Below the pieces are notes generated by a model. That model had not been told where the DNA came from. It saw only the letters and a program-made list of their open reading frames with translations, and did no database searches. Below, piece by piece: positions 18,413-60,050 of a stretch of DNA of 64,000 nt. Location: the NCBI RefSeq assembly GCF_964355755.1, contig NC_092676.1, positions 11,020,288-11,084,287 on the forward strand. The letters are read 5' to 3'. Origin of the DNA: Antedon mediterranea. Taxonomy: Eukaryota > Echinodermata > Crinoidea > Comatulida > Antedonidae. Numbering within the stretch: the first letter of the stretch is position 1; each line of letters opens with the position of its first letter. Made by a program: the position numbers and the translations under genes.

Positions 18413-18677
18413 TTAAGAATGTCCATATCTTTCCGGCGGTTTTCTATCGCGAGTAAGGTATACTCTTCGCTGAGCAGTCATAAGCTGTGCTTCGACAGTT
18501 GATTGTGATGTTTCCACTGTTCTATTTGGATTAATGAGCATTGGAGGTAATTTTGCAGGATCATCTTTGTTATTTAAGCTGTTTTTCCTGAGGTTGAACA
18601 GGCCTATAACGCTTCCTGATATGGTCGGCATGACGACGACAAACTCGTCCATCTTCTAGTTTTATCTTGAATGAGAT
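18413..18677 (-). pseudogene. Gypsy integrase C-terminus (distal piece)
   Basis: Reading leftwards from 18677, the minus strand gives a FKIKLEDGRV segment followed by RRHADHIRKRY, the typical tail after the GPY/F module of gypsy integrases. Then, after a frame change, it ends with RKPPERYGHS and a stop. The LINE insertion separates this piece from the upstream GPY/F part at 21108-21182. Confidence 0.8.
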
Positions 18678-23757: not shown

Positions 23758-24206
23758 TAAGAAAATTATACGATTAAATTATAACCTTCTAGTGCTTAAA
23801 ATATATATGGATAAACGCTAGTTGTATTTTAGGCTTAACATACGGCATACAGTGCTAACATATGGCATACAACGTTAACATAGGTGTACATTCTTCGTTA
23901 ACAACAACAACGACGAGCCACACCTTGTCATCCTCGTGGTAACATGTTGGACCAAAGATCCATAACATTCTTCTAATATAATAAGTAACAGCTAACAAAA
24001 TAACAACTATCAGATTCTAAGGTAAAAACATAACTACTATATATAGGTTCCGAAACTCACCAGAAAACATAAAGACGGTGATAAACACAGGTAACTTTGC
24101 ATAATTTGTTAAAAAGAACATAACCTTGCGGTCGGTAGAGCTAACCTTAGTTGACCCCAGAGGGCGCTACGATCAATAAAACTCCTCAAACGGACAGCAC
24201 AACACC

Positions 24207-25296
24207 TCCTCCCCTTCTACAAAAGTGCGTTCTTTTGCATGACGACCATGGGCTAATTTCTGTTTTTCAAGGGTGTAAAAGATCAAATGCGTTTTCAAAT
24301 TTCGACCGTTAAGTAATTCTGCTGGTGTTTTGCCAGTTGTGCTATGAGGTGTATTTCTATATTTAAATAGTAATCTTGTGACTTTTGTTTCGGTAGATCC
24401 GTCTTTCAAACGTTTCATTGCTTCTTTAAATGTGCGTACAGCACGTTCCGCAAGACCATTCGATGATGGGTGATATGGGGCTGTTAAAGAATGTCTTATT
24501 CCATTTCGCTTTATGAATGTGTGAAATTCATCACTGGTGAAACATGTTTCACTGTCGGATACTATTTTATCTGGCAATCCATGCGATGCAAATATAAGCC
24601 TGAGCTTATCCACTGTGGTATTTGTCGTTGAGGAATTTACCGGAATTACCTCAAGCCATTTTGAGTATGCGTCGACAAGTATTAAAAAACATTTTTCCCA
24701 TAAATGGTCCAGCATAGTCGATGTGTAATCGTGACCATGGTCTATTTGACCAATTCAATAGGTGCAATGGTTCTTTAGGTGGTAAAGTTCGATTGGATTG
24801 GCATGTATCGCACTGTTTTGTCCTTAATTTGTTTGTCCATATTAGGCCACCATAACGAATCCCGAGCAAAACTTTTCATTCTGACAATTCCAGGATGACC
24901 GTCATGTAGTGCTTGTAGCAACTGTTTTCTACCAGGCTGTGGAACAACAATTCTATTTCCCCACAAAATACATCCATCTTGTGTAGAGAGTTCTCTTTGT
25001 CGGATCCAAGATGGTTGCAAGTTTTCAATTTTTGGATTAGTATTGGGCCAACCCTTTTCAATGTAGTAAAGAACTCGAGAAAGTGTTGGATCTTTAACTG
25101 TCCAACCTGTAATATCTGCTGTGGAAACTGGAGATTGGTTCATTGAATCCATCAATAGAACAGTTTCGGCAGCTTGTGTGGAATTGATTCTGGTTTTCCT
25201 GGCAATAGTAATCTGCTTAAGGCATCCGCATTGGCATGGGACTTTGTCGGTTTGAATCTTAATGTATATTTGTATGTACCTAATTTCAGCGCCCAA
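24207..25296 (-). pseudogene. Gypsy integrase: zinc-binding and catalytic core
   Basis: The minus strand shows HDGHPGIVRMKSFARDSLWW, the end of the HHCC zinc-binding region, then the core. LHIDYAGPF holds the first Asp, with LILVDAYSKWLEV next. FTSDEFHTFIKRNGIRHSLT and APYHPSSNGLAERAV give the second half of the D,D-35-E triad, with the Glu in the last. Frame changes near 24700 and 24860 break it. It stops at EGEEV where the solo LTR inserted. Confidence 0.88.
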
Positions 25297-26465
25297 CGTT
25301 GGATTCTAGCTGATGCTTGGCTAGGCACAAGTCTGTCCTCATTAATAAGACCCAGCAATGGCTTATGGTCTGTTACCAATGTGAAATGTCACCATAAATG
25401 TAAGAATGAAATCGGGTTACTCCGAAAACGCATGCAAAACCTTCTTTCTCAATTTGCGAATACTTTTTTCCGCTTCTGCAAGTGTTCTAGATGCAAATGC
25501 GATCGGTCTTTTTGTACCGTCACTTAGTCGATGTGCTAACACAGCCCCAATTCCATATTGAGATGCATCACACGGTAGTATTATTTCCTTTTTTGGATCA
25601 TAATGTGCAAGTACTCTGGAGGAAAGTAGCAATTCATTTGATTTATCAAAAGTAGATTTTTCTAAATGTGTCTAGTTCCAAGCTTTATCCTTACGAAGTA
25701 AGGCATATAACGGAGCAAGCGTGTTGGATACGTTTGGTAAAAACTTTCCATAATAAGATAACAATCCCAAATAAGCTCTCAGTTCTGTCAAGTTTTGAGG
25801 CGCTGGAGCATCTTTAATTGCTCTCACTTTGGCGTTTGTGGGATGCAATTCCTCTTTGTCGATCGTGTGTCCCAAATAATCTACAGATTTAACCATAAAA
25901 ACACACTTTTTTTTAGACGAAGTCCAGCATCTGCCAGTCGATTTAGGACGGTTTCAAGAGTTTTGGAGTAATTTTTTCCTGTAATTAATATATCGTCCAG
26001 GTATACTGTAACACCTTTAATTCCTTGTAATAGTCTTTCCATGACACGCTGGAAAATTGCTGGTGCTGAAGATACTCCAAACGGCAACCGTGTTTATTGG
26101 TAAAGTCCCTTTTGAGTGTTGATTACAACATATTTTCGAGAATCTTTGTCTAAGAGTAATTGTTGGTACGCTTGTGACATGTCCAATTTAGTAAATTTTT
26201 CTCCGTTAGCTAACGATGAAAAGATATCTTCAATCCTGGGCAAAGGATACTGATCAACTTTGGCTGGTTTATTTACAGTAATTTTGTAGTCACCACAGAT
26301 CCTAACGGTAGATTTATCCGCCTTAAGTACCGGAACTATTGGTGCAACGCAGTCTGAAAACTGTATAGGTTCAATAATGCCTTCTCGTTGTAAGCGATCA
26401 AGTACGTCATCTACTTTCTGTCGCAAAGCATACGGAACATTTCTGGCTTTGCAAAATGTTGGCAT
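25152..26465 (-). pseudogene. Gypsy reverse transcriptase and RNase H
   Basis: RT landmarks in order on the minus strand: KADKSTVRICGDYK, FTKLDMSQAYQQL, MPFGVSSAPAIFQR, and the catalytic YLDDILITG. The connection LGLLSYYGKFLPN follows. RNase H is seen as [23 protein letters not shown] and VTDHKPLLGL, ending with SHANADALSR. The frame is broken at about 26090, 25880, 25640 and 25400, so at least four lesions. Confidence 0.9.
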
Positions 26466-26540
26466 TGTCTCTTTATCAACGTAAATTTTTGCTTCAGTAC
26501 CCTTAAGGGTACCTAGTTCGTCTCTAAATATTTCTTGGTA

Positions 26541-26933
26541 TTAACCAAGCAGTGAACTTAAATCTAATTGGTTTATTACCTTGATTTTTTGCCAGTCCAA
26601 CTTTATAAACTGAAGCCAGTCTCGACCAATTAGGGTAGGTCCATCTGTTCGCACAATCGTTAATAGTAATATTGTAGTAGTACTCTGGTATGTAACTTCA
26701 GCATTAATTTTACCAAAAACATCCATTATTTGTCCAGTGTGTGTACGTAGCTTAATTGACGATGGTTCAAGTTCTCTTTTAGGCCATAATTGCCTAAATT
26801 TTGTCTGCGACATTATTGATACCGAGGCTCCTGTGTCAATTTCCATTTCAGTATCCAAACCATCTAACAGTATCTTAACTTTCATAGGTGGAAGACTAGA
26901 CATGGTCTTTATTCCAAATAATTCTTCATACAT
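26541..26933 (-). pseudogene. Gypsy aspartic protease
   Basis: The minus-strand frame contains MEIDTGASVSIMS, the retroviral-type aspartic protease active site, and TLIGRDWLQ, the LLGRDWL-like motif near the protease end. This domain order before RT is typical of gypsy pol. Confidence 0.85.
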
Positions 26934-26989
26934 TTCTGTACGTAGCTATGTTTGCTTGGTTCATCGCTTGTTGGCTCATCTGCCACAAC

Positions 26990-29864: not shown

Positions 29865-29948
29865 GAGATGAGTAGTAAAATAAGTTGGCCTAGCCCTCAT
29901 AGAGGGCGTTTGAGGGGATGACATTAGTTAATCCTATTATAATTAATA

Positions 29949-30563
29949 CAATGGTAAACAATGGTAAGGGAGTAAGACAATGGAGTTGTTATTTAATTTG
30001 AAAAAGACAATGGTTAACGATGGTAAGGAAGTAAGACAATAGAGTTGTTTGGTTTTGGAAGTTAATCAATGACAATATTAAAAAGACAAGAATATAATGA
30101 AGTGATATTTAAGTATGTCTTTATTGAACTATACTATTTCCTTTTAAAATAAAACAAAAAGGAGGTAAAGAGGGACGCTACTATTTTAATGTGTATAAAT
30201 ATAGGGTAAAATTTATACTGAACTCATCAGTATCAGTTTTCAAAGCGTTGTAAGTTATTTGATCCGGATATTATAACAATGACTAAAACATCGGCCTAGT
30301 CAGTCGTGATTATAATATTGGTTAACAATGGAGGTAGTATAAGACAATAGAGAATATCATTTCACTAGAATTGTTATATAGAATTGTTATATATTAATAT
30401 ACATTATAATATAAAATTATTAAATAATAAATAAAAAATATTTGGTGATGATTTAGTCGTTTGTGATGAGAACAAATGGTTTACAATGGTTGAAGTCAAT
30501 AGGTGTTATGTTTCGGATATAATAATACAATGGTTAACATTGGGTAAGGAAGTAAAAGATTGT
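29949..30563 (+). repeat. Subterminal repeats of the Polinton end (left)
   Basis: The unit ACAATGGTTAACAATGGTAA-GGAAGTAAGACAATAGAGTTG recurs in degenerate form at about 29949-29990, 30006-30050, 30318-30358, 30474-30504 and 30528-30563. A second direct repeat, AAGTTATTTGATC-GGATATTATAACAATGACTAAAACA, lies at 30252-30290 and 30658-30696. Mirror copies sit in the right arm. They could be binding sites for the integrase or for replication proteins; this is inference. Confidence 0.7.
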
Positions 30564-30731
30564 TGTAAGATTTGAATTAGTCATGTACTTGGCGGTATTT
30601 TTAAAAAGGGGTACAATAAAAGATGCACCTGGTTTAATTAAAACAACGTAACAACATAAGTTATTTGATCAGGATATTATAACAATGACTAAAACAAAAA
30701 GTTAAGAGAATTTAGTACAGTTTTCATCAGT

Positions 30732-30836
30732 ATGAACTTCTACAAACCAACAGCTGATTACGCCGATTCTAAATTAGCTGATAAGGCTAAGGCTACTATG
30801 CAGCGAGTTATGAGAAAACGGTTTGATCTTCGATGA
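30732..30836 (+). CDS. Short 34-residue frame, left arm
   Basis: Starts MNFYKPTADYADSKLADKA and ends in a basic stretch with a TGA. The mirror copy is at 39972-40076 on the minus strand. It may be the start of a decayed longer gene; the sequence beyond the stop still reads like protein for a few codons. Function unknown. Confidence 0.25.
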   Translation: MNFYKPTADYADSKLADKAKATMQRVMRKRFDLR

Positions 30837-30993
30837 TCTTGGATCGGAAATTTTTTAAATTGAATGACATTGGGGAAGCTACTTAATGAAACAAAAGATA
30901 CACGGCGCTTCGACACAATGTTCCGACAGGAAATACAACAATGACAATTGGCTGAAACAAATTTGGTAAATGCCGAATGTAATCTTTTGACTG

Positions 30994-31000
30994 TATATAA
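30994..31000 (+). promoter_or_regulatory. TATA box upstream of the acidic-protein gene (left)
   Basis: CTGTATATAACTCTC precedes the ATG at 31085 by about 85 bp, with a pyrimidine-rich possible initiator between. The same sequence is kept in the right arm at 39808-39814 in front of the ATG at 39721. Confidence 0.5.
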
Positions 31001-31084
31001 CTCTCGAATATTTTGTAATATTTACCTCATTCTACAACGCTACAGAGCTCGACAAGACAGACAAAAAACCAACAACTAGTTACT

Positions 31085-31814
31085 ATGGGTTCCGTGATTG
31101 AAATCATTGATCTTACTATGGACTCTGATGTCGAAGAAGAAGTTATATATATATAAGCAGTGATTCAAAATTTGAAGACGAAGACATACTAGCTATGACT
31201 GGTGCCTATTTTACAGCAAAGGAGGAGGAAGAGATGAGGGAAGAGATGGGGGATATGACGTGTTTAATGGCGATTCAACCCCACCTCCAATGAACGTTGA
31301 TTTCAATAATGTATCTAATACTGAAGAAGACGAACATTATAGATCGAGAATAATTTCTGAAGAGGAGAGGATTGTATACGATGACACGTCATCGGTAGTT
31401 GACTACCACCTATTTCTGGCAAGAAAAGCCGATGTAGAAGATGAGGTAGAAGATGAGGTGTTTGCGGAAGAGTACCTGAACCCTGTGCTGGAGGCGGAGA
31501 TTAAGAAAGAAACTACCGAACTTGAGTACAAAGAGATAATGAGAACAATTGAGAAGGTTTTCATAGAAGAATTTATATTCATTCTGAAGGACATGGTTGA
31601 ACGTTATAACTTTCACGGCTCAAGATATGAACAACTCCTAACATTTTTTCGACCAATTCTGGCATTGCAACTTGTGGACAATAGCGCTACTCATTTTGAA
31701 TGGGCGCTAAACTACTTTCATTTACGTTGTATCAATGTTGATGCGTTCGATAAAGCCATAAAGTTGATTACAAATGATTCAGAACTTTTTAATAAGATTC
31801 TTTACCAATTGTAA
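31085..31814 (+). pseudogene. Acidic SIM-containing protein gene, left copy, frameshifted
   Basis: The start region (31085-31160) encodes a segment with the SUMO-interacting-like core VIEIIDL. A two-base TA expansion in GTTATATATATATAAG near 31145 then breaks the frame before the second such core. The long downstream frame (31260-31814, 184 codons) remains open: acidic, with EVEDEVFAEEYLNP, then a predicted helical part ending FHLRCINVDAFDKAIKL. An AATAAAG near 31946 can serve as poly(A) signal. It differs from the right copy by two residues in the 184. Confidence 0.55.
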
Positions 31815-32062
31815 TTTGTACAAATTAAAAATAATATCTTAACACTTTTTTAATTAATGTTACATAATTTTGTAATTCTTATTTCTTTTCGGTAAATTTA
31901 TTATTATTATGGTTGTAAATTATATTGAAATAGAATGTGTGTTAAAATAAAGGTTGTGTTTTTTCTTTTAAAAGCAAAAACAACGAAAATGAAATTTGAT
32001 CTTTGCGTGTTATTTAAGTATCTGATTTATTTTTTTAATTTTCATTTGGGTGAATGAGAGTA
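31815..32062. other. 3' flank with poly(A) signal, left arm
   Basis: AT-rich DNA with AATAAAG near 31946 and the first copy of the AATGAAATTTGATCTTTGCG module (31985-32010). No gene. Confidence 0.4.
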
Positions 32063-32308
32063 ATGAGTATGAATGAGTACTTAAGAAAAGTATATTACAA
32101 TTCTAAGCATCCTGATAGTTTTGGTGGTGTGGACCGACTTTATCAAAATGTAAAAGACGATTTAAATATTACCAAGAGACAAGTTCAAGACTGACTGAGC
32201 AAGCAAGATACATATACATTACACAAATCCATTCAACGTAAATTCAAACAAAACTGGGTACTTGTAAGTGCTATTGATGAACAATGGGGAATGGATTTGG
32301 AAAAATAA
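32063..32308 (+). pseudogene. Polinton integrase N-terminal remnant, left arm
   Basis: 82 codons from ATG to TAA with one internal TGA at 32192-32194. The pattern YLRKVYYNSKHPDSFGGVDR, then KQDTYTLHK, RKFKQNWVLVSAIDEQW, is the start of the retrovirus-like integrase of Maverick/Polinton elements, just before its catalytic core. The TGA stands where the family has Trp. The catalytic core is missing. The mirror copy carries the same TGA. Confidence 0.8.
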
Positions 32309-33319
32309 CGTTTTATAAAATTTGATTCAGACAAACTGTTTGCAAAATCAAAGGTTTGACTCTAGATTTCCAAAAATCAAAGGAAGTCAATTTTGAAATA
32401 GTTGGTAGCATGGTACGAGGAATCGGACTGGAAAAAATAACAACAACTAATCCTAACAAAATAACCCGTAAACCAAAATCTCACTTAATATTTATTTTTT
32501 ATTAGAAATTTGTAAAAGTAGTTACCCTATTTTAATTCATGGTAAATTTATTTTTCGAATTAATTTAATTTGTTTTATTTTCTGTTGAATTTTTATTATT
32601 ATTATGTTTGTAAAGTGTATTGCAATAGATTTGTTTAATAAAATAAATAAATTAATTATGTTTTGACTTAATTTATGTCAGTGTAAATTTTGTAAAAGTA
32701 GTTTTCCTATTTTAATTCATGATAAGTTTATTTCATGACTTTACTTAATTTTTTCTTTTCTGTTAAAGTAGAATGTGTATTGAAATACATTTTGTTTTTT
32801 AACATCAACAACAAAAAAATGAAATTTTATCTTTGCGTGTTGTTTAATTCGTGTATGATGTTTTTCTAATTTATTTATACAAAAAAAAAAGAAAACAAGT
32901 TTTTGAATTTGTTAAATGTAATTGCAAACATACATAATAAATTATTGCAATTAAAAATTATATTTTGTAAAGTGTATTACAATAGAATGTGTATTGAAAT
33001 ACATTTTGTTTTTAACATCAACAACAAAAATGAAATTTGATCTTTGCGTGTTGTTTAACTCGTGTATGAAGTTTTTGAATTTGTTAAATGTAATTGCAAA
33101 CATACATATTAAATGATTGTGATTAAAAATATTCTGTTTACTTTTTATTTTTTATTTTAAACAGTAGTATTTTTAACAGTAGTTATATTTTATATATAAT
33201 AAGTAATATTACAAAAATAAACATACAAAATGTATAAAGCATAGACTTATTAAATTTAAATACACTTTCTTTATTTCAAAATGAATTTCATTTTATACGT
33301 GTTTTCAATTTTAAATCTT
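32309..33319. repeat. AT-rich stretch with repeated 3'-end-like modules (left)
   Basis: A module of about 75 bp (TTTTTAACATCAACAACAAAAATG, AAATTTGATCTTTGCGTGTT, GTTTAA-TCGTGTATGA) occurs near 32798-32875 and 33008-33085, with a related copy near 31970-32010. No convincing gene remains, although 32390-32480 gives a short protein-like string on the plus strand (GIGLEKITT, NKITRKPKSH). Confidence 0.5.
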
Positions 33320-33520
33320 TTAAGAAAGACACAATACGTACTGATATAAAAACGCACACAAAAGAAAACAAATTTGAGACGCACGGTTTGTAACGACACT
33401 TTCAATAAGAAGGCATATTATAAATGTATTTTTACCAAATTTATAAAGTAAATGCTTATTATTGAGAAATATACATTTTAGATAAATGATAACACATCTA
33501 AAATTAATTAGAGAGATCAA
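33320..33520 (-). CDS. Small hydrophobic frame, left arm
   Basis: 66 codons, rich in Ile, Leu, Phe and Cys, open in both arms with one residue changed. AT-rich DNA easily gives such frames, so coding is doubtful. No family recognised. Confidence 0.15.
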   Translation of the reverse strand: MISLINFRCVIIYLKCIFLNNKHLLYKFGKNTFIICLLIESVVTNRASQICFLLCAFLYQYVLCLS

Positions 33521-33874
33521 TACAATATGGTGTTCATAATAATTTGTTTTTGATGACTAGAGGAAACATCTGAAGACATTCAACGAAAAACAAGCGTTAT
33601 CACCATACCAGTCACTAAGAATGCTACTATTCTGAAGAAAAAAACATCTCCCTTCCTACACAGAAACAAATTCTGAACGAAAATAAAAAATAAAAAAATA
33701 AAAAATAATTAGTAAACAAAACACGCGCATTATAAATAAAATGAATAATTTAAGAATATTTGTTAAACTACCCACGAACAAAAAACGAAACATACTAACC
33801 GATTCATCGTCATTACGAAGTTCAAATAACGAAAACTTTTCCTTGAAAAATCCACAGGAGACACGTTTTACATT

Positions 33875-34156
33875 TTATAACTGCAATTCAGTGTCACATT
33901 GTGTCGCAACACATGTACATACAACGAGTCCTGTCACAAGTCTGCCGACATTTATTTTTCTATCGCTCATCATTTGTTCTAATACATAATACAGCGCTTC
34001 CAAAGAAATATCTTTACACAATTCTAACACATTAAAATTGTTTTCCAACTCTTTACAAGCACGAATAGTACTCTGGAGGATGGGTGAATCCAAAACAACT
34101 AACCCCGTCAATTTATATTCGATGTATGCTAAAACTACTTCCTCTAAATCAACCAT
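33875..34156 (-). CDS. Bcl-2-like protein, left arm copy
   Basis: 93 residues from the Met at 34156; an in-frame Met 14 codons upstream (34198) is less likely because the Bcl-2-like part begins at the inner one. The start LEEVVLAYIEYKLTG resembles a BH4 helix (VVDFLSYKL-type). TIRACKELENNF lies where a BH3 would be. KINVGRLVTGLVVCTCVA matches the BH1 pattern around NWGRxVA, with Val replacing Trp. The protein stops soon after BH1, so BH2 and the membrane anchor are absent. Between arms only one silent difference (ATC/ATT) was found in 282 bases. It would block host cell death if functional; that is inference. Confidence 0.55.
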   Translation of the reverse strand: MVDLEEVVLAYIEYKLTGLVVLDSPILQSTIRACKELENNFNVLELCKDISLEALYYVLEQMMSDRKINVGRLVTGLVVCTCVATQCDTELQL

Positions 34157-34198
34157 AACGCTCGACAAAACAAATGATAATGGATGTATAATTACCAA

Positions 34199-34839
34199 GA
34201 AAGTTACAACTTAAAACCTTTATTTTTGCTTTTAAAAAGAAGTTGTAACATAGAAACTAATTTTGTCAGGAAATTTGTTTTTATTATTTATGTGATTTAT
34301 TTGTGTTTAGAAAGTTACAACATTAACATTTAATTTGGTAAAAAAATGTGAATATACGGATCCGATTGTAATTTTTAATCCTTAGTATAGTGAGAGATTT
34401 TATAAACAAAAAAAGAGCGAACGGAAATTAATGATTGCAGATTAGACATATAGTAGAAATGGATTGAAATTGGAAATCTACATGATCAAAGAAAAGAAAC
34501 CCATTGTTCCGACAGAAGCTAATGACATTTACAAAGGATGACACACTTTGAATTGAGTAAATACCGTATAACATAATTAAATTTTGTCAAGATAGTTGTC
34601 AAAAAGAAATAAAATATATTATACTGAATTTACTTTGTACATTTATTTAATTTAGGCCGTAATTAGGTTTGTTGTTCATTTATGATTGTGACAAAAAAAA
34701 AATACATACTAATAAAACAGCTATAGGCCTATAAAAAAAGTTTAAAAAAATAATGATTCAGTGTTATAATTTTATTTACCTGTCATTATGTTAATAAAAC
34801 ATATTCTAAATTTAATTTATGTCATGTTAGATATATTTT
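34199..34839. other. AT-rich noncoding DNA, left arm
   Basis: Mirrored at about 36015-36655. It may hold the promoter of the Bcl-2-like gene. No gene seen. Confidence 0.4.
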
Positions 34840-35060
34840 CAAGGACATTTGTTACATACAAATAATTTTGTAAAGAAATTTGTTAAGAAGTTTGTTTCAT
34901 AAAAATATTTGTGAAGATAAATTTATTACATAAAAATAATTTTGTAAAGAAATTTGTTACATAAATTTATTTTTACAAGAAGTTTGTAACAGAAAATTAT
35001 TTTGCAAAGAATTAGTTGCATCAATTGATTTTATCAAACGTATGTAACATAAAAAAATTA
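34840..35060 (+). repeat. About 30-bp AT-rich tandem array, left arm
   Basis: Degenerate units like ACATAAAAATAATTTTGTAA followed by AGAAATTTGTT recur about seven times. The array is mirrored at about 35790-36030, and further weaker units occupy the central loop at 35335-35470. Confidence 0.7.
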
Positions 35061-35252
35061 TGTTGTTGAATAAAATATTTTGTAATTCAGTCCATTTGCT
35101 CAGTAGTTTGTTTAAGTCTTGTTTGTGTAATATTCTTGTAAATAAAAGAATTTATTTTTAACCTTTGTAATTATTTTGTAAATATCATTTATGCATTTTT
35201 TTTGTCGTAAATAATTGAATTTATTTATACTTTTTGTACGGGAATCAATATT

Positions 35253-35598
35253 TGTTTATAAATTTAATTATTATTATAGATTTCTTCTTTATTTAGTATG
35301 TCGATTAATTTCAGATTCAGAAACATGTTACACAAGAAACAAAAATTGTCATGAAATTCGTTACATAAAAAATAATTTATCAAGAATTTTTTTTTACATA
35401 AATTTTAATTTATCATTAATTTTGTTATAAAATTTATTTTGTCATTAAATTTGTTAGATAAAAAATAGTTGTTTCATGATTCTAGTTCCTTTTGTTCAGT
35501 ACTTATATGGAAATTCAAGTTAAGAATGCAATGACAATGACTGGGTGTTTAGCGTGATTAGCGGACCGCTTTCCTCCGGTAAATCGGTATTTGTTAAC
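35253..35598. other. Unpaired centre of the palindrome
   Basis: 346 bp with no inverted partner. It holds more degenerate TTACATAAAAAATAATTTAT-like units and a GC-richer end (GCGTGATTAGCGGACCGCTT). It is the only single-copy part of the element and would form the loop if the arms paired. Confidence 0.75.
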
Positions 35599-35789
35599 AA
35601 TATTGATTCCCGTACAAAAAGTATAAATAAATAAAATTATTTACGAAAAAAAAATGCATAAATGATATTTACAAAATAATTACAAAGATTAAAAATACAT
35701 TCTTTTATTTACAAGAATATTAAACAAACAAGACTTAACAACTTAAACAAACTACTGAGCAAATGGACTGAATTACAAAATATTTTATT

Positions 35790-36030
35790 CAACAACATAA
35801 TTTTTTTATGTTACATACGTTTGATAAAATCAATAGATGCAACTAATTCTTTGCAAAATAATTTTCTGTTACAAACTTCTTGTAAAAATAAATTTATGTA
35901 ACAAATTTCTTTACAAAATTATTTTTATGTAACAAATTTATCTTCACAAATATTTTTATGAAACAAACTTCTTAACAAATTTCTTTACAAAATTATTTGT
36001 ATGTAACAAATGTCCTTGAAAATATATCTA
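35790..36030 (-). repeat. About 30-bp AT-rich tandem array, right arm
   Basis: Inverted partner of 34840-35060, with units like TTACAAAATTATTTTTATGT. Confidence 0.7.
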
Positions 36031-36697
36031 ACATGACATAAATTAAATTTAGAATATGTTTTATTAACATAATGACAGGTAAATAAAATTATAACACTGA
36101 ATCATTATTTTTTTAAACTTTTTTTATAGGCCTATAGCTGTTTTATTAGTATGTATTTTTTTTTGTCACAATCATAAATGAACAACAAACCTAATTACGG
36201 CCTAAGTTAAATAAATGTACAAAGTAAATTCAGTATAATATATTTTATTTATTTTTGACAACTATCTTGACAAAATTTAATTATGTTATACTGTATTTAC
36301 TCAATTCAAAGTGTGTCATCCTTTGTAAATGTCATTAGCTTCTGTCGGAACAATGGGTTTCTTTTCTTTGATCATGTAGATTTCCAATTTCAATCCATTT
36401 CTATATGTCTAATCTGCAATCATTAATTTCCGTTCGCTCTTTTTTTGTTTATAAAATCTCTCACTATACTAAGGATTAAAAATTACAATCGGATCCGTAT
36501 ATTCACATTTTTTTACCAAATTAAATGTTAATGTTGTAACTTTCTAAACACAAATAAATCACATAAATAATAAAAACACATTTCCTGACAAAATTAGTTT
36601 CTATGTTACAACTTCTTTTTAAAAACAAAAATAAAGGTTTTAAGTTGTAACTTTCTTGGTAATTATACATCCATTATCATTTGTTTTGTCGAGCGTT

Positions 36698-36979
36698 ATG
36701 GTTGATTTAGAGGAAGTAGTTTTAGCATACATTGAATATAAATTGACGGGGTTAGTTGTTTTGGATTCACCCATCCTCCAGAGTACTATTCGTGCTTGTA
36801 AAGAGTTGGAAAACAATTTTAATGTGTTAGAATTGTGTAAAGATATTTCTTTGGAAGCGCTGTATTATGTATTAGAACAAATGATGAGCGATAGAAAAAT
36901 AAATGTCGGCAGACTTGTGACAGGACTCGTTGTATGTACATGTGTTGCGACACAATGTGACACTGAATTGCAGTTATAA
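36698..36979 (+). CDS. Bcl-2-like protein, right arm copy
   Basis: Encodes exactly the same 93 residues as the left-arm copy, transcribed away from the centre. The BH4-like start, BH3-position segment and BH1-like KINVGRLVTGLV are unchanged. An upstream in-frame Met at 36656 would add 14 residues. No intron signals are needed. Adenovirus-like and other large DNA viruses and some Polinton-related animal viruses are known to carry Bcl-2 homologues, which supports the reading, but sequence identity to any Bcl-2 protein will be low. Confidence 0.55.
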   Translation: MVDLEEVVLAYIEYKLTGLVVLDSPILQSTIRACKELENNFNVLELCKDISLEALYYVLEQMMSDRKINVGRLVTGLVVCTCVATQCDTELQL

Positions 36980-37302
36980 AATGTAAAACGTGTCTCCTGT
37001 GGATTTTTCAAGGAAAAGTTTTCGTTATTTGAACTTCTTAATGACGATGAATCGGTTAGTATGAAATATTCTTAAATTATTCACTTTATTTATAATGCGC
37101 GTGTTTTGTTTACTAATTGCTTTTTATTTTTTTATTTTTTATTTTCGTTCAGAATTTGTTTCTGTGTAGGAAGGGAGATGTTTTTTTTCAGAATAGTAGC
37201 ATTCTTAGTGACTGGTATGGTGTTAACGCTTGTTTTTTGTTGAATGTCTTCAGATGTTTCCTCTAGTCATCAAAAACAAATTATTATGAACACCATATTG
37301 TA

Positions 37303-37503
37303 TTGATCTCTCTAATTAATTTTAGAAGTGTTATCATTTATCTAAAATGTATATTTCTCAATAATAAGCATTTACTTTATAAATTTGGTAAAAATACATT
37401 TATAATATGCCTTCTTATTGAAAGTGTCGTTACAAACCGTGCGTCTCAAATTTGTTTTCTTTTGTGTGCGTTTTTATATCAGTACGTATTGTGTCTTTCT
37501 TAA
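37303..37503 (+). CDS. Small hydrophobic frame, right arm
   Basis: Mirror of 33320-33520, with Ser instead of Cys at residue 9. Open in both arms but without family features. Confidence 0.15.
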   Translation: MISLINFRSVIIYLKCIFLNNKHLLYKFGKNTFIICLLIESVVTNRASQICFLLCAFLYQYVLCLS

Positions 37504-38506
37504 AAGATTTAAAATTGAAAACACGTATAAAATGAAATTCATTTTGAAATAAAGAAATTGTATTTAAATTTAATAAGTCTATACATTTTGTATGTTTATT
37601 TTTGTAATATTACTTATTATATATAAAATATAACTACTGTTAAAAATACCACTGTTTAAAATAAAAAATAAAAAGTAAACAGAATATTTTTAATCACAAT
37701 CATTTAATATGTATGTTTGCAATTACATTTAACAAATTCAAAAACTTCATACACGAGTTAAACAACACGCAAAGATCAAATTTCATTTTTGTTGTTGATG
37801 TTAAAAACAAAATGTATTTCAATACACATTCTATTGTAATACACTTTACAAAATAAAATTTTTAATCGCAATCATTTATTATGTATGTTTGCAATTACAT
37901 TTAACAAATTCAAAAACTTGTTTTTTTTTTTTTTTGTATAAATAAATTAGAAAAACGTCATACACGAATTAAACAACACACAAAGATAAAATTTCATTTT
38001 TTTGTTGTTGATGTTAAAAAACAAAATGTATTTCAATACACATTCTACTTTAACAGAAAAGAAAAAATTAAGTAAAGTCATAAAATAAACTTATCATGAA
38101 TTAAAATAGGAAAACTACTTTTACAAAATTTACACTGACATAAATTAAGTCAAAACATAATTAATTTATTTATTTTATTAAACAAATCTATTGCAATACA
38201 CTTTACAAACATAATAATAATACAAATTCAACAGAAAATAAAACAAATTAAATTAATTCGAAAAATAAATTTACCATGAATTAAAATAGGGTAACTACTT
38301 TTACAAATTTCTAATAAAAAATAAATATTAAGTGAGATTTTGGTTTACGGGTTATTTTGTTAGGATTAGTTGTTGTTATTTTTTCCAGTCCGATTCCTCG
38401 TACCATGCTACCAACTATTTCAAAATTGACTTCCTTTGATTTTTGGAATTCTAGAGTCAAACCTTTGATTTTGCAAACAGTTTGTCTGAATCAAATTTTA
38501 TACACG
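37504..38506. repeat. AT-rich stretch with repeated modules (right)
   Basis: Mirror of 32309-33319, with the same CGCAAAGATCAAATTTCATT modules near 37770 and 37980. The frame at 38357-38596 is the antisense of the integrase remnant region and not a gene. Confidence 0.5.
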
Positions 38507-38746
38507 TTATTTTTCCAAATCCATTCCCCATTGTTCATCAATAGCACTTACAAGTACCCAGTTTTGTTTGAATTTACGTTGAATGGATGTGTGTAATGTA
38601 TATGTATCTTGCTTGCTCAGTCAGTCTTGAACTTGTCTCTTGGTAATATTTAAATCGTCTTTTTGATAAAGTCGGTCCACACCACCTAAACTATCAGGAT
38701 GCTTAGGATCGTAATATACTTTTCTTAAGTACTCATTCATACTCAT
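38507..38746 (-). pseudogene. Polinton integrase N-terminal remnant, right arm
   Basis: Same remnant as in the left arm, with a 6-base deletion and the same internal TGA. Here the family-typical YYDPKHPDS is kept where the left copy has NS, while the left copy keeps Phe in SFGG where this one has Leu. So each arm has taken its own mutations after a common, already broken ancestor. Confidence 0.8.
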
Positions 38747-38993
38747 TACTCTCATTCACCCAAATGAAAATTTAAAAATAAATCAAATACTTAAATAACA
38801 CGCAAAGATCAAATTCCATTTTCGTTGTTGTTGCTTTTAAAAGAAAAAACACAACCTTTATTTTAACACACATTCTATTTCAATATAATTTACAACCATA
38901 ATAATAATAAATTTACCGAAAAGAAATAAGAATTACAAAATTATGTAACATTAATTAAAAAAGTGTTAAGATATTATTTTTAATTTGTACAAA

Positions 38994-39721
38994 TTACAAT
39001 TGGTAAAGAATCTTATTAAAAAGTTCTGAATCATTTGTAATCAACTTTATGGCTTTATCGAACGCATCAACATTGATACAACGTAAATGAAAGTAGTTTA
39101 GCGCCCATTCAAAATGAGTAGCGCTATTGTCCACAAGTTGCAATGCCAGAATTGGTCGAAAAAATGTTAGGAGTTGTTCATATGTTGAGCCGTGAAAGTT
39201 ATAACGTTCAACCATGTCCTTCAGAATGAATATAAATTCTTCTATGAAAACCTTCTCAATTGTTCTCATTATCTCTTTGTACTCAAGTTCGGTAGTTTCT
39301 TTCTTAATCTCCGCCTCCAGCACAGGGTTCAGGTACTCTTCCGCAAACACCTCATCTTCTACCTCATCTTCTACATCGGCTTTTCTTGCCAGAAATAGGT
39401 GGTAGTCAACTACCGATGACGTGTCATCGTATACAATCCTCTCCTCTTTAGAAATTATTCTCGATCTATAATGTTCGTCTTCTTCAGTATTAGATACATT
39501 ATTGAAATCAACGTTCATTGGAGGTGGAGTTGAATCGCCATTAAACACGTCATATTCCCCATCTCTTCCCTCATCTCTTCCTCCTCCTTTGCTGTAAAAT
39601 AGGCACCAGTCATAGCTAGTATGTCTTCGTCTTCAAATTCTGAATCACTGCTTATATATATAACTTCTTCTTCGACATCAGAGTCCATAGTAAGATCAAT
39701 GATTTCAATCACGGAACCCAT
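38994..39721 (-). CDS. Acidic SIM-containing protein gene(s), right copy
   Basis: A 68-codon frame (39721-39515) starts with two SUMO-interacting-like cores, VIEIIDLTMDSD and EVIYISSDSEFEDED, each hydrophobic followed by acidic/Ser residues. It overlaps by 34 bases, in another frame, with a 184-codon frame (39548-38994) that has an acidic N-terminus and a helical C-terminus. They may be two proteins or one gene with a one-base shift near 39560; I cannot decide. The junction bases are the same in both arms apart from AAT/GAT near the overlap. A TATA box lies about 90 bp upstream. Role unknown; SIM-bearing viral proteins often target nuclear bodies. Confidence 0.5.
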
Positions 39722-39807
39722 AGTAACTAGTTTTTTTTTTTTTTTGTCTGTCTTGTCGAGCTCTGTAGCGTTGTAGAATGAGGTAAATATTACAAAATAT
39801 TCGAGAG

Positions 39808-39814
39808 TTATATA
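39808..39814 (-). promoter_or_regulatory. TATA box upstream of the acidic-protein gene (right)
   Basis: Mirror of the TATATAA at 30994-31000, in front of the start codon at 39721. Confidence 0.5.
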
Positions 39815-39971
39815 CAGTCAAAAGATTACATTCGGCATTTACCAAATTTGTTTCAGCCAATTGTCATTGTTGTATTTCCTGTCGGAACATTGTGTCGAAG
39901 CGCCGTGTATCTTTTGTTTCATTAAGTAGCTTCCCCAATGTCATTCAATTTAAAAAATTTCCGATCCAAGA

Positions 39972-40076
39972 TCATCGAAGATCAAACCGTTTTCTCATAA
40001 CTCGCTGCATAGTAGCCTTAGCCTTATCAGCTAATTTAGAATCGGCGTAATCAGCTGTTGGTTTGTAGAAGTTCAT
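39972..40076 (-). CDS. Short 34-residue frame, right arm
   Basis: Mirror of 30732-30836 with the same start and stop. Function unknown; possibly the stub of a lost gene. Confidence 0.25.
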   Translation of the reverse strand: MNFYKPTADYADSKLADKAKATMQRVMRKRFDLR

Positions 40077-40439
40077 ACTGATGAAAACTGTACTAAATTC
40101 TCTTAACTTTTTGTTTTAGTCATTGTTATAATATCCTGATCAAATAACTTATGTTGTTACGTTGTTTTAATTAAACCAGGTGCATCTTTTATTGTACCCC
40201 TTTTTAAAAATACCGCCAAGTACATGACTAATTCAAATCTTACAACAATCTTTTACTTCCTTACCCAATGTTAACCATTGTATTATTATATCCGAAACAT
40301 AACACCTATTGACTTCAACCATTGTAAACCATTCGTTCTCATCACAAACGACTAAATCATCACCAAATATTTTTTATTTATTATTTAATAATTTTATATT
40401 ATAATGTATATTAATATATAACAATTCTAGTGAAATGAT

Positions 40440-41065
40440 ATTCTCTATTGTCTTATACTACCTCCATTGTTAACCAATATTATAATCACGACTGACTAGG
40501 CCGATGTTTTAGTCATTGTTATAATATCCGGATCAAATAACTTACAACGCTTTGAAAACTGATACTGATGAGTTCAGTATACATTTTACCCTATATTTAT
40601 ACACATTAAAATAATGTATGCATGATGTCAGTAGCGTCCCTCTTTACCTCCTTTTTGTTTTATTTTAAAAGGAAACAAAGAATTCTCTATGTAAAACGTA
40701 AACCATTTAAATGAAAATGAAAGTTAATTTAAAGTTAGAAATAATAATTATTTGTTTTACTTTTTTTTTGAAAAATAGTGAAACTTAACATCTTGCTTCA
40801 CGTTACACCAATCATTCATTGCGAATCCCCATTGTTAAAATTTTCCGGAAGAAATTAAGTACATGTTGGTATAGTTCAATAAAGACATACTTAAATATCA
40901 CTTCATTATATTCTTGTCTTTTTATTATTGTCATTGATTAACTTCCAAAACCAAACAACTCTATTGTCTTACTTCCTTACCATCGTTAACCATTGTCTTT
41001 TTCAAATTAAATAACAACTCCATTGTCTTACTTCCTTACCATTGTTTACCATTGTATTAATTATA
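40440..41065 (-). repeat. Subterminal repeats of the Polinton end (right)
   Basis: Mirror of the left subterminal repeats, interrupted by about 195 bp of unshared sequence at roughly 40673-40867. Confidence 0.65.
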
Positions 41066-41138
41066 ATAGGATTAACTAATGTCATCCCCTCAAACGCCCT
41101 CTATGAGGGCTGGGCCAACTTATTTTACTACTGAGATG

Positions 41139-43113: not shown

Positions 43114-45045
43114 TTAAGTTCTGTAATTCAATAAAATGTCTCTTTTTACATATTTTTTTAGTATTTTATAATTTTTGTTAACAATATCTAAGTGATTTCT
43201 ACAGAGCTCGTTCCATAGTTTTGGTCCGTGAATACTGATAAAATGTTGACCAGACGTTAACCTAGAGTATGGTTGTTTTACGCTACAAATATTTCGAAGA
43301 TTATGGGTAGTATTTCTGGGTAAAACATTGCTTTTAATCTGGGCCATGAAACCTAGGACGGTAACTCTGTTGATATCTTGTATGTTAAGTATATTTAATT
43401 GCTTAAACAGTGGCTCAGAATGTTGCCATGGCTTTTTAAATAAAATTATTCTAGCAGCCTTTTTCTGGAGTTTAAGAAGGGATTCTAGTGTACTATCATA
43501 TGTACTGCCCCAAATAATGTTTCCATACTGAAGGTGCGGTAGAATTAATGTATTATACAAATTTGTTAAAATATAATTAGGAAAAAAATGTCTAGTTTTT
43601 ATCAATATTCCAATAGACCTAGCGGTTATTTTGCTAATAAGCCTTATATGATTTTTCCAGCAAAGGTTCTCATTTATTACAACCCCAAGAAATGTTACAT
43701 TTTTTTGTTGTTCTAAAGTAATGTTATTCATTTTCAATTCAATGTTGGTTGTAATAATACGCCTTTGGGCAGTTTTAAAGATTACGTAATTTGTTTTGCT
43801 GGTGTTTAATAAAAGTTTATTAGCTTTGAACCACATATTAATTCTATCTAGTTCCACATTCATAGTGTTTGCCAATGCGTTCAGGTTATTTCCACACTTG
43901 AATCCTGTTGTATCATCGGCAAAGCTAATTAATTCAATTTGTGTACTTGAGTTACATATTTCGTTTACATATACAAGAAACAACAAAGGTCCCAAAACGG
44001 ACCCTTGTGGAACACCAATACTAGTCTCCTTAATATTAGACGAAGTACCATTTATAAAAACATATTGCTTTCGTGATTTTAAGTAGTTACTGAACCATTT
44101 TAGTGTAACACCTCTTATACCATAGTGGAATAGCTTGTTCAGTAATATACTGTGGTCAATAATATCAAATGCCTTTGACAAATCCATAAATGTGGCAATT
44201 ACGAACTCTTTGTTTTCAAATGCCTTTAGTATTTTGTGGATCAGATCAATTATAGCGTGGGAGGTTGAATGATTGTTTCGGAAGCCGTATTGCCAATCAT
44301 TTAGTATATTGTAAGTTTTAAAGTAATTATACAATCTGGAATGGACTATCTTTTCAAAGATTTTAGAGAAAATTGGTAGTAGTGATATCGGGCGATAATT
44401 CGAGGCTAAATGACGGTCCCCTTTTTTGTATATGGGAATTACTTTTGCAATTTTTATCTGTTCCGGTATTGAGCCGGAGTGAAGAGATACGTTAAATATA
44501 TAAGTCAAGGGCTTTACAATAGCATCACCAACTGCCTTGATCACCTTTGGTGAAATATCATCAAAACCAGGTGTTTTGTTTGCATCAAGTGATTGAATCA
44601 CTTTTAACACTTCCTCCTCATTTACATGGTAGAAAAACATAGAGTTACTTTGCCTGTTTAGCAGGTTATCAGAGTATTGTGCCGTTGATGGCTCAATACT
44701 GTCTCGTACCTTGAGACCAACATTAATAAAATAATCGTTAATGTGGTTTGCAATAGGCTCACAACCCTCTATGAGTTTGTCACCAGATGTAAAAGTGGAT
44801 GGAACATTATTTTTGCCTCCACCTGGATTTATAATATCATTTATAATATTCCATGTTTTTATTTTATTTCCTTTAGTATTGTTAAAAACATTTTCATAAT
44901 ATGATTTCTTTGCCTTTTTGCATGTACGCATAAATGACTTATTAAACTCTTTATAAATATCCTTATTTTTAGACGAGGGATGTTTTATAAATTTGTTGTA
45001 CAACGCATGTTTTCTTTTGCTAGACTTTAAGAGTCTTGAGCTCAT
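43114..45045 (-). CDS. CR1-like ORF2, reverse transcriptase part
   Basis: 643 codons from the Met at 45045, but the true frame begins further upstream with the endonuclease part. The RT core includes IAKVIPIYKKGD, NYRPISLLPIFSKIFEKI, WQYGFRNNHST, MDLSKAFDIIDHSIL, GVPQGSVLGPLLFLVYVNEI and ISFADDTT (catalytic ADD). The C-terminal FISIHGPKLWNEL motif is the tail segment seen in CR1/L2-type ORF2. The frame is intact throughout this part. A run of A (RC of 45095-45105) shifts it against the endonuclease frame. Confidence 0.9.
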   Translation of the reverse strand: MSSRLLKSSKRKHALYNKFIKHPSSKNKDIYKEFNKSFMRTCKKAKKSYYENVFNNTKGNKIKTWNIINDIINPGGGKNNVPSTFTSGDKLIEGCEPIANHINDYFINVGLKVRDSIEPSTAQYSDNLLNRQSNSMFFYHVNEEEVLKVIQSLDANKTPGFDDISPKVIKAVGDAIVKPLTYIFNVSLHSGSIPEQIKIAKVIPIYKKGDRHLASNYRPISLLPIFSKIFEKIVHSRLYNYFKTYNILNDWQYGFRNNHSTSHAIIDLIHKILKAFENKEFVIATFMDLSKAFDIIDHSILLNKLFHYGIRGVTLKWFSNYLKSRKQYVFINGTSSNIKETSIGVPQGSVLGPLLFLVYVNEICNSSTQIELISFADDTTGFKCGNNLNALANTMNVELDRINMWFKANKLLLNTSKTNYVIFKTAQRRIITTNIELKMNNITLEQQKNVTFLGVVINENLCWKNHIRLISKITARSIGILIKTRHFFPNYILTNLYNTLILPHLQYGNIIWGSTYDSTLESLLKLQKKAARIILFKKPWQHSEPLFKQLNILNIQDINRVTVLGFMAQIKSNVLPRNTTHNLRNICSVKQPYSRLTSGQHFISIHGPKLWNELCRNHLDIVNKNYKILKKYVKRDILLNYRT

Positions 45046-45102
45046 CCATGGTTGTTTGAACTTTTTATACTTTTTGTGATTTTCTTGAACTTTTTCTTTT
45101 TT

Positions 45103-46164
45103 TTAAAAGTTTTTATTATATAATTTTTTGAAAGTGTTGATAAAAGCATTGTAAGCATCATCAGGGTTTGTCCTTACATATACATCAGCCCAATCAACAG
45201 GTAATAAGTCATTATATAGTTTATTTATGTTTCTTTCGTTTATTGCATATTTATGAGGTTCTATATTACCGGTTTTTACTTTAATATGTTTGTCGGGCAC
45301 GGAGTGGATAATTTGGTATACCGGTAAATGATCAGATATGTCTGAGATTAGTATACCAGATAACATTTGTTCAGAAAGTGTATTGGAGAAAATGTTATCA
45401 ATTAATGAAGATGTGTTGTTTTGTATTCTAGTGGGTCTTGAAATCGATGGGTAGAAGGAATGCGACATCATTACTTCTAGAAAATTATTTACAAAATCAA
45501 TCGATGCATGCTTAAGTAAATTAATGTTAAAATCACCCATAATGTGGCATGATTTTCCCTCGATATCAATAGTATTAAGAATATCGTCTAGTGATCTATT
45601 AAAAAGTTCTATATTCGAATCGGGAGGTCTATATATTATACCAACAATCGTATTGTTACATTTTTTTTCAATTATTTCAATAAACATACATTCACAAGAT
45701 TCAATAAATAGATCTTTTCTTTCTTTTATGTCAATTGTAGCAGAAACAAACATACCAACTCCCCCTCCTTTACGGTTCTTTCTATCTAATGCGAGGAAGT
45801 CATAGCTCGGTAAATATGGTTTGCACGATGTATTGTTTAACCATGTTTCCGATATACCAATAACTGTAAAGGGGTGGTTGATTAAGTTTAGATATGTAGT
45901 TAGTTCACCAATGTGTTTATTGATACTTCGAATATTATAGTGAAGAAATGAGTAGCCAATATTTTTTAATTTCTTCACAGATTCATTCAAGTCATATGGA
46001 CTCATATAAGAACATGTCTCAATAGCATTTAGTTTGTTTCTGACACTATATTCAATGAATTCGTCATGGTCATTATTACCATTATCAATAGATATTGGAT
46101 TAAATAGTATATCCATTGGATTTGATATTTCGTTTTCATCACCGTTATTTTTATTGTTATCCAT
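45103..46164 (-). CDS. CR1-like ORF2, APE-type endonuclease part
   Basis: 353 codons. LHYNIRSINKHIGEL, VIGISETWLN (catalytic Glu), IVGIIYRPPDSN, HIMGDFNINLL (catalytic Asp-Asn) and ISDISDHLPVY (SDH) are the blocks of the apurinic-type endonuclease that nicks target DNA for LINE integration. It begins MDNNKNNGDENEIS. It ends at a homopolymer shift just before the RT part. Confidence 0.9.
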   Translation of the reverse strand: MDNNKNNGDENEISNPMDILFNPISIDNGNNDHDEFIEYSVRNKLNAIETCSYMSPYDLNESVKKLKNIGYSFLHYNIRSINKHIGELTTYLNLINHPFTVIGISETWLNNTSCKPYLPSYDFLALDRKNRKGGGVGMFVSATIDIKERKDLFIESCECMFIEIIEKKCNNTIVGIIYRPPDSNIELFNRSLDDILNTIDIEGKSCHIMGDFNINLLKHASIDFVNNFLEVMMSHSFYPSISRPTRIQNNTSSLIDNIFSNTLSEQMLSGILISDISDHLPVYQIIHSVPDKHIKVKTGNIEPHKYAINERNINKLYNDLLPVDWADVYVRTNPDDAYNAFINTFKKLYNKNF

Positions 46165-46390
46165 GCTTTGATTTGGTATGTTTATTGATTGTATTTGTCT
46201 ATAAAAAACTATTTTAATTAATATAATTTATAATACTATGCTTATGTCTACTGCTTAATTTCAGTTACAATAACTTTCTGAATTTGTGTTACCTTACAAT
46301 TGTTGAAATTTGTGGTAACGTGGTCTACCTCTTCCCGTGTTAGCTTTTCTGCGAGATAGATCTAGAACGTTTTCAACTTTGTATCTGACA

Positions 46391-58640: not shown

Positions 58641-59704
58641 GTTGATCAGTAAACACTAATTGTATATGGCCTTGTTTTGATATCAGGGCCACGGATTCCG
58701 TAGTGAGATAATTTGAATAAGAGTATATTGTGATCAATTGTATCGAAAGCCTTGGAGTGGTCTATAAAAATTCCTAATGTGAGGTGACGGTCTTCGAAAC
58801 CATCAACAATTTGATTAGTTAGGTCGATTAGAGCTGATGCAGTATTATGGCGTTTTCTGAATCCAAATTGTTTTTTTGTAGAATGTTGTATTTATTTATG
58901 AATGAGGACGTACGTTCATAAATCACTCTCTCCAAGGCTTTCGAGAAAATTGAAAGAATTGAGATAGGACGATAGTTGGAGAGATCAGATTTGTTGCCGG
59001 TCTTATAAATAGGAGTAACACGCGCTATCTTCATCCTGTCTAACCTGTTTAACCATTAGATAAAACAAGATTAAAAATATGGGATAATGAAAAGGAGATC
59101 AAATTTGCAACATATTTAATGGGTTTTGTTTTAAAATCGTCAATGCCAGGGGATTTGTTTGTTTCAAAGGATGTCATAATTTTTATTATGTTTATACTTC
59201 CGTCTGGATTAAGGAATAACAATTATCAGTTGGGTTTGGCAGAAAGTCTTTAAATGACTTATTGACATGGGAAATTTTGTTAGCAAGGGAAGGACCAATT
59301 TCTACAAAGTATTTGTTAAAAGCATTACATATTGTATTGGGATCTTTAGTCAGTTCACCGTTACAGTTGATAGAGATATCAGAGTTTCGATTATTGGGGT
59401 TTTTGAGTAGTGAATTGATGGTTTTCCAGGTTGCCTTGATATTATTTTTATGTTTAATGAAAGTGTCCGTAATTTTTTAGCCAGTTTGATCAAAGTATTT
59501 GATTTATTGCGAAATTTTTTGTATGTTTTTTCATTGGCGACAGAAGGACAGTGGAGGAATTTAGAATAAAGTTTGTGTTTATATTTAACTGAATTTAGCA
59601 ATCCATTAGACATCCAGGATTTTTATTTTTTTTATATTTTTTTTTCATTTTTGGAGGGGAAAGTGTTTATTATAAAGTGATTTTAATTTATTGTAAAAAT
59701 TATT

Positions 59705-59789
59705 ATATGCAGTGTTGGGATCGTCAGTGTTTATATGCAGTGTTGGGATCGTCAGTGTTTATATGCAGTGTTGGGATCGTCAGTTTTTA
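59705..59789 (+). repeat. Three tandem 28-bp units inside the LINE
   Basis: TATATGCAGTGTTGGGATCG-TCAGTGTT occurs three times in a row, the last slightly changed. A local expansion within decayed LINE sequence. Confidence 0.85.
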
Positions 59790-60050
59790 TAACTTCAAGC
59801 CATTGTTGTGTAGCCACATCAATGCGAAAGTTTTCCAGGGATGTATAGTTTATTTACTCATTTACTCATGCATTTCTTCCCTTTTTGAGCCAGTTGGAAC
59901 ATTATTAATAAAAGAAATATTGAAAACAGGAAGATGCTCAGAGATATCACAATACAGTAAACCACTTATGTTGTGATGATTGAACTGATTTGTAAAAATG
60001 TTGTCAAGCAGAGTAGCAGTGGTTTTAGATATACGTGATGGTTTGTGAAT

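Follow-up and report, generated by a model that had tools for sequence, protein, structure and literature searches.

The palindromic element and its genes

We analyzed 64,000 nt of Antedon mediterranea DNA (assembly GCF_964355755.1, contig NC_092676.1, positions 11,020,288-11,084,287 of the forward strand), hereafter the window, which contain an 11,262-bp element related to Maverick (Polinton) transposons and arranged almost entirely as one palindrome. The element occupies window positions 29871-41132, and its inverted repeat accounts for 96.9% of its length. Over 5,316 aligned sites the two arms differ by 54 substitutions (58 if the target duplications are included) and 15 indels. Exact 20-mer inverted pairs numbered 4,318 in the element, whereas the left flank (29.9 kb) had 228 and the right flank (22.9 kb) 2; the palindrome is far beyond chance. 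The 40 bases outside the target duplication on the left do not resemble those on the right.

A preliminary description of the locus had reported AG..CT ends with a perfect GAGATG duplication, an inverted repeat covering over 95% of the element around a 346-bp centre, derivation from a Maverick, and movement or insertion as a unit. Each of these points was borne out. The termini are AGTAGT at 29871 and ACTACT at 41132, that is, AGT repeats of the Maverick type, with GAGATG on both sides, and Maverick descent is indicated by this end motif, the 6-bp duplication, and relics of a DNA polymerase B gene (polB) and of the Walker A region of an ATPase. The span first given, 29865-41138, located the element correctly and included both target duplications.

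From the end inwards, the gene order in each arm is a 242-codon open reading frame (ORF), the C-terminal relic of polB, and an antisense Bcl-2-like gene (Table 1). Among the loci examined, the ORF is intact in two other palindromes, C3b and C5, and in the right arm of a third, C8a. The EIIDLT in the acidic stretch of its product is, we presume, similar to a SUMO-interacting motif. No intact polB was found in the window element, where the ~60-codon relic of each arm was the only polB sequence detected, and a genome-wide search for the polB family gave no match inside the element. Nor is there a complete packaging ATPase in it; the centre holds only an N-terminal relic, whereas the full gene is present in C11, a full-length element described below. 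The ATPase relic is strong in the palindromes C1a, C6b, and C3c (E 1e-15 to 6e-17). Pfam scans of six ORFs and ten stretches, which cover part of the element, revealed no integrase; the full-length elements were outside this search.

Assignment of the antisense gene to the Bcl-2 family is weak. The window version scored 19.6 bits with Pfam, the versions of five other palindromes 16.6-22.0, and the C11 version 21.0. The sole PDB match of the palindrome protein was the poxvirus (fowlpox) Bcl-2-like protein FPV039 (E 0.19-0.32), and the C11 version had no PDB match. Among 5.8 billion proteins no homologue scored for the C11 Bcl-2-like protein or for a 212-amino-acid frame, and the latter had no relative in viral contigs searched by patterns and tblastn. 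Folding of the Bcl-2-like piece without an alignment gave a predicted local distance difference test (pLDDT) score of 48, and the model was not used. The ratio of nonsynonymous to synonymous substitution rates (dN/dS) was 0.25-0.37 when C11 was compared with the palindromes in 10 pairings; selection on the gene within the palindrome family is uncertain.

According to one published account (PMC8097293), vertebrate Mavericks end in AGT repeats, are flanked by 6-bp duplications, have terminal repeats that range from 46 to 1,447 bp, and carry polB and an ATPase in one module; by this measure, the limit of about 1 kb that the preliminary description had set for ordinary Polinton terminal repeats is slightly low. 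The palindromes resemble Mavericks, and adintovirus-like animal viruses, in their AGT-repeat ends, 6-bp target duplications, and combination of polB with ATPase. They differ in carrying twice the end with the 242-codon ORF, polB relic, Bcl-2-like gene, and ATPase relic; in that only relics of polB and ATPase were detected; and, in the window, in inverted arms of more than 5 kb rather than terminal repeats of the above range. Hallmarks listed for adintoviruses (PMC11071296) are a polB with an OTU domain, a recognisable hexon, and an rve integrase with a chromodomain.

Table 1. Features of the palindromic element, in window coordinates
Feature	Position	Strand	Remarks
Target site duplication GAGATG, left	29865..29870		Perfect 6-bp match to right copy
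Left arm of palindrome, first bases AGTAGT	29871..35252	+	5,382 bp
242-codon ORF, left copy	31085..31814	+	Acidic N-terminus with EIIDLT; frame broken; open at some other loci
Maverick-type polB C-terminal relic, left arm	32314..32490	+	tblastn E 4.9e-13 (small local search); 49% identity, ~60 codons
Bcl-2-like gene, left arm	33659..34189	-	One internal stop; 98% identical to 174-amino-acid open frame of another palindrome
Unpaired centre (loop)	35253..35598	+	346 bp; holds start of packaging-ATPase relic
Packaging ATPase relic, Walker A region (SVISGPLSSGKSVFVNNI)	35551..35604	+	67% identity to ATPase of full-length Maverick; E 0.072, weak alone
Right arm of palindrome, last bases ACTACT	35599..41132	-	5,534 bp; 98.98% identical to left arm
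Bcl-2-like gene, right arm	36665..37150	+	Two internal stops; 86% identical to the same 174-amino-acid frame
Maverick-type polB C-terminal relic, right arm	38326..38514	-	tblastn E 8.6e-14 (small local search)
242-codon ORF, right copy	38994..39721	-	Frame broken; homologous to left copy
Target site duplication GAGATG, right	41133..41138		Perfect 6-bp match to left copy

The largest indel of the otherwise mirrored element is a 191-bp stretch at approximately 40677-40867, present in the right arm only. The left flank (window 1-29864) is the richer of the two flanks in inverted 20-mer pairs. Open frames at 24176-26945, 18671-20807, 43117-46227, and 59195-61804 were judged on reading to resemble retrotransposons of the long terminal repeat (gypsy-type) or non-long-terminal-repeat kinds.

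A family of palindromes inserted as units

The A. mediterranea genome (354 Mb in 18 contigs) was searched for further copies; all counts that follow are lower bounds, since only the best candidates were scored by the search. The protein of the 242-codon ORF had at least 103 matches, which merged to 52 loci. Sixteen of the 18 pairs of neighbouring ORFs within 16 kb face each other, and 18 loci are unpaired. The Bcl-2-like gene was found at 87 places, including 21 pairs in the expected orientation, and the polB places (35) included four pairs, all facing each other. Merging of these pairs gave about 31 candidates for palindromes, of which the ORF contributed 16, the Bcl-2-like gene a further 11, and polB 4. 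Fifteen were read, and every one has long inverted arms, of 1.9-6.9 kb: the window element and 11 others of its lineage, C9:16692182 with polB arms, C10:20262036, and C6:27398223-27412024. The preliminary description had suggested a search for further copies with the same arms, and the 11 of the window lineage are such copies.

Some loci depart from the common arrangement. The Bcl-2-like pairs C5:19577617/19587612 and C9:13258615/13266162 face the opposite way to the other 21 and may be palindromes of the other Maverick end or adjacent elements. At C6:14383570-14403029, three ORF fragments in the same direction are followed by an inverted one, together with an inverted Bcl-2-like pair, perhaps as nested or rearranged copies. 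A single ORF copy situated 18 kb from C3b (C3:23741013 and C3:23759661) encodes a 100% identical protein, perhaps as the result of local duplication and loss of one arm. A retrotransposon inserted in palindrome C4 has an open frame (L013:174-4187) that encodes domains of reverse transcriptase, RNase H, and integrase. In a sister palindrome lineage (L038, C6:27398100-27405100, and also L036), PC4-like (Pfam 2e-22) and AlkB-like 2OG-oxygenase (1.4e-19) genes lie between the end and the Bcl-2-like relic, as well as a 215-amino-acid open frame with the motif VIIISDDEE. The SUMO-motif-like ORFs of the two palindrome lineages gave no alignment with each other.

Perfect 6-bp target duplications flank 12 of the 13 palindromes whose outer ends were examined; those of C9:16692182 and C10:20262036 were outside the sequence read. 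In the window lineage, 11 of 12 palindromes have them (GAGATG in the window, and GATGAA, ACGATG, ACCATG, CGTGTC, GAAGTT, ATTATT, AAACAT, TGTGTT, ACTCTC, and GAAACA elsewhere), and the duplication at C6:27398223 is CACCCC. All of the other window-lineage copies except C10:17600519 (10 of 11) have AGTAGT or AGTAGA termini. The 6-bp duplications on both sides show that the palindromes were inserted as units.

These duplications at both outer ends, and the recurrence of the same centre in copies at different places (see below), speak against a post-insertion origin, in which half of a Maverick already resident in the chromosome would have been duplicated in inverted orientation to form each palindrome. 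The half-palindromes L028 and L029, which break at or near the centre, do indicate that rearrangement takes place there. L028 consists of one arm and extends through the loop to its far side; the outer 6-mer of this copy, AATCAT, is not present at the inner break. L029 has one arm that stops ~118 bp before the centre; its outer 6-mer TATTTT recurs ~30 bp past the point where similarity stops, but this word is rich in A+T and may recur by chance. The pattern in most copies read already contradicts such post-insertion duplication, which we regard as very improbable.

Near-perfect palindromes are difficult to sequence and assemble, and the analysis rests on assembled sequence, so that inverted-duplicate reads or a mis-resolved repeat had to be considered as the source of the arms. 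An artefact is extremely improbable because the window arms differ from each other at the sites counted above and 14 further inverted pairs exist elsewhere; flanks were compared for 12 of the 14 and were all different. The arms differ by up to 2% through private changes, the 12 window-lineage copies read all have different flanks, and loops and indels are copy specific.

Full-length relatives, arms, and centres

Maverick-type polB genes occur at ~35 places in the genome, and at 15 of them a Bcl-2-like gene lies within 4.5 kb. In C11 the order is end, 127-amino-acid ORF, polB, antisense Bcl-2-like gene, ATPase, two ORFs, protease, and 441-amino-acid ORF. The ATPase exceeds the Pfam Pox_A32 cut-off and the adenain-type protease the Peptidase_C5 cut-off; the 441-amino-acid ORF received no Pfam name. 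The terminal repeat of C11 is a few hundred bp long. Nine elements of ~15.4-16.3 kb have the C11 terminal sequence at both ends and carry polB and the Bcl-2-like gene; C11 was partly read and the others were judged by coordinates. The C11 end also stands on both sides of palindrome C6:27398223-27412024 (97%; 96.5% over 430 bp on the left side), so palindromes and autonomous-looking elements share ends within one lineage. Paired C11 ends were placed by coordinates, without reading of the loci, at C9:17513931, C4:35601509, and C3:31220542 as well. As to the full-length parent for which the preliminary description had suggested a search, polB elements with short terminal repeats are thus present in the genome, but none with the exact ends of the window element was found.

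At the DNA level, identity between C11 and the window arm is 74% across a 351-bp part of the Bcl-2-like region; at the start of the ATPase gene, two other palindromes match C11 at 71-74% over 115-142 bp. Such values bear on a possible host function, in which the palindromes would be kept as natural hairpin-RNA loci feeding RNA interference against Mavericks. A transcript across such a locus would form a kilobase-scale hairpin with polB, Bcl-2-like, and ATPase sequence, and snap-back genomes of adeno-associated virus (AAV) have been proposed as a source of regulatory double-stranded RNA (PMC8235507). However, an identity of 71-75% over short stretches is poor for small-RNA targeting of the C11 type, and the copies vary in age and place as those of a mobile element would. 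We consider this function quite improbable.

Divergence between the two arms of one element ranged from 0.05 to 2.1%. Among 209 arm substitutions in 12 elements, a tally that includes the target duplications of the window, 132 paired a state seen in other elements with one private to a single arm, and 9 had both states elsewhere, while 68 could not be judged. The high share of private changes among the informative differences (132 of 141) supports the view that each copy was inserted with two identical arms. In a tree of a 750-bp stretch, which differs by 0-2.8% between elements and 0-1.35% between arms of one element, the two window arms were joined with support of 99/98; rows of recently spread copies (C3b/C5, C3c/C3a, and C6b/C9) were mixed or unresolved. 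Both arms of C3b carry a duplicated block, and inverted blocks stand on both sides in C4.

Such mirroring could also arise in an ordinary foldback-type DNA transposon with very long terminal repeats, its arms homogenised by chromosomal gene conversion and with no snap-back replication involved; the foldback habit is known in other transposon families. Foldback and Galileo transposons likewise have inverted repeats of great length that contain internal repeats. Galileo is a member of the P-element superfamily, whereas the palindromes are marked by Maverick ends, 6-bp duplications, and relics of viral genes. The private nature of most informative arm differences speaks against such a transposon, and divergence of 1-2% in some copies argues against continual correction in the chromosome. 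Truncated viral genes stand in Maverick order within the arms, and one palindrome has the same end sequence as full-length Mavericks. A foldback transposon is therefore an unlikely explanation.

As for the centres, a common ~40-nt loop was found in C3c, C6b, C8a, C1a, and the half-copy L028, and an in-frame stop in the ATPase relic is common to C1a, C3c, C6b, C8a, and C4. Because loop and stop are shared, most of the window lineage probably derives from one palindrome with its centre just past the ATPase relic. Many independent snap-backs had been entertained as the cause of differing junctions, an idea dropped in view of these shared features. The window element tracks C1a as far as GTTAACAAT and then turns back at ~3 bp of microhomology, and its 346-bp centre has the appearance of a central deletion that took place later. 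The turn-back is still earlier in C5, C10:17600519, C9:17482121, C3a, and C6a. C6:27398223 and C10:20262036 have a different loop in common, of ~62-66 nt, that also lies within the polB arms of C9:16692182; the latter is likely a recombinant with an exchanged arm on both sides. Loop orientation varies among copies and is uninformative, as a symmetric element can insert either way.

A probable snap-back origin and its implications

We conclude, with a probability of roughly 0.7, that the window element belongs to a non-autonomous, mobile family of palindromic Mavericks that originated as a snap-back replication product. The family is probably helper dependent. The preliminary description had likewise proposed a snap-back, and the same viral end on both sides is what such a product would have, the route being our reconstruction. 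Its interpretation was right in kind but too narrow, in that it envisaged a single defective genome fixed once, whereas the element is one of a family of palindromes that is mobile and in which several members share one founder centre.

Protein-primed strand-displacement replication in a Maverick lineage with polB, Bcl-2-like, and ATPase genes may have been the starting point. A nascent or displaced strand would have folded back in or just beyond the ATPase gene and been copied to its own end, giving a product with the polB-side terminus at both ends. This product integrated as a unit with 6-bp target duplications, the integrase probably being supplied in trans, and proteins of full-length Mavericks would have served both replication and integration. 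It then appears to have spread as a palindrome, as the shared ~40-nt centre and the identity of the arms at insertion suggest. Most likely, the second arm was rebuilt from the first at each such step, a displaced strand forming a full-length hairpin in which mismatches were repaired or recopied. Regeneration of one arm from the other would explain why a duplication, an inverted block, or an exchanged gene block in one arm has its mirror image in the other. Judged by comparison with C1a, the window copy would later have lost its centre, probably by deletion at the ~3-bp microhomology, and then accumulated ~1% divergence between its arms.

Comparable products are known from viruses. Defective adenovirus genomes with duplicated left ends arise from a protein-primed replicon and have one terminus at both ends; they are not known to be integrated or inherited, or to form a multi-copy mobile family. 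For AAV, symmetric and asymmetric snap-back genomes are described (PMC8235507). There, as in the window element, the same genome end stands at both termini around a loop, with nearby genes doubled head to head, and asymmetric forms exist. The AAV forms are packaged parvovirus subgenomes, whereas the palindromes are chromosomal, have target duplications, and have spread as a family.

Several observations weigh against a snap-back origin or against parts of this account. Chromosomal gene conversion between the arms would also mirror changes. No full-length polB element with the window's own ends was found among the 23 terminal matches listed, and the only polB near a window-type end, C4:31885018, is at a distance of ~13 kb and probably does not form part of the palindrome at that place. 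Two same-direction ORF pairs sit in one cluster (C6:14383570-14394826), and two Bcl-2-like pairs are oriented opposite to expectation. Unpaired centres can be large (5.9 kb in C1a, 2.0 kb in C5, and 6.2 kb in C6a, the last partly a later insertion). Matching ends or a duplication were sought at C10:17600519 and none was found. C3b lacks the first of two stops in the ATPase relic and has the second; C3b and C4 have different centres, that of C4 holding a polB fragment. The window lineage apparently had one founder, so that no repeated occurrence of the snap-back step was seen in it, and differing junctions can equally be explained as central deletions. As for the gene itself, the Bcl-2-like frame is under the Pfam gathering cut-off of 31.4 bits in all seven versions scanned, and dN/dS between palindromes is mostly 0.5-1.2, with constraint hardly visible.

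More tentatively, and at somewhat less than even odds, palindromic Mavericks could form a separate class of virus satellites, each consisting of half a genome, with a single replication end and a hairpin at its centre. The second arm would be rebuilt each round, so that any alteration of one arm, for instance capture of a gene or acquisition of a new polB arm, would be copied across. The arms would then be vehicles of cell-modulating genes (Bcl-2-like and SUMO-motif-like, with PC4-like and AlkB-like genes in the sister lineage), supported by full-length Mavericks of the same genome. No palindromic or non-autonomous Polintons appeared among the matches listed in a search of open-licence literature, for which mostly titles and the beginnings of abstracts were available.

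Viral replication is known to yield snap-back genomes as by-products; in this case one apparently became a mobile family that is inherited and present in many copies. One chromosome-scale genome contains this family together with full-length relatives, half-copies, and a recombinant. The palindromes would provide a record, datable through arm divergence, of a protein-primed virus-like element making and propagating palindromic genomes, which agrees with the view that Mavericks replicate like adenoviruses and would make virus-satellite evolution within an animal genome testable.

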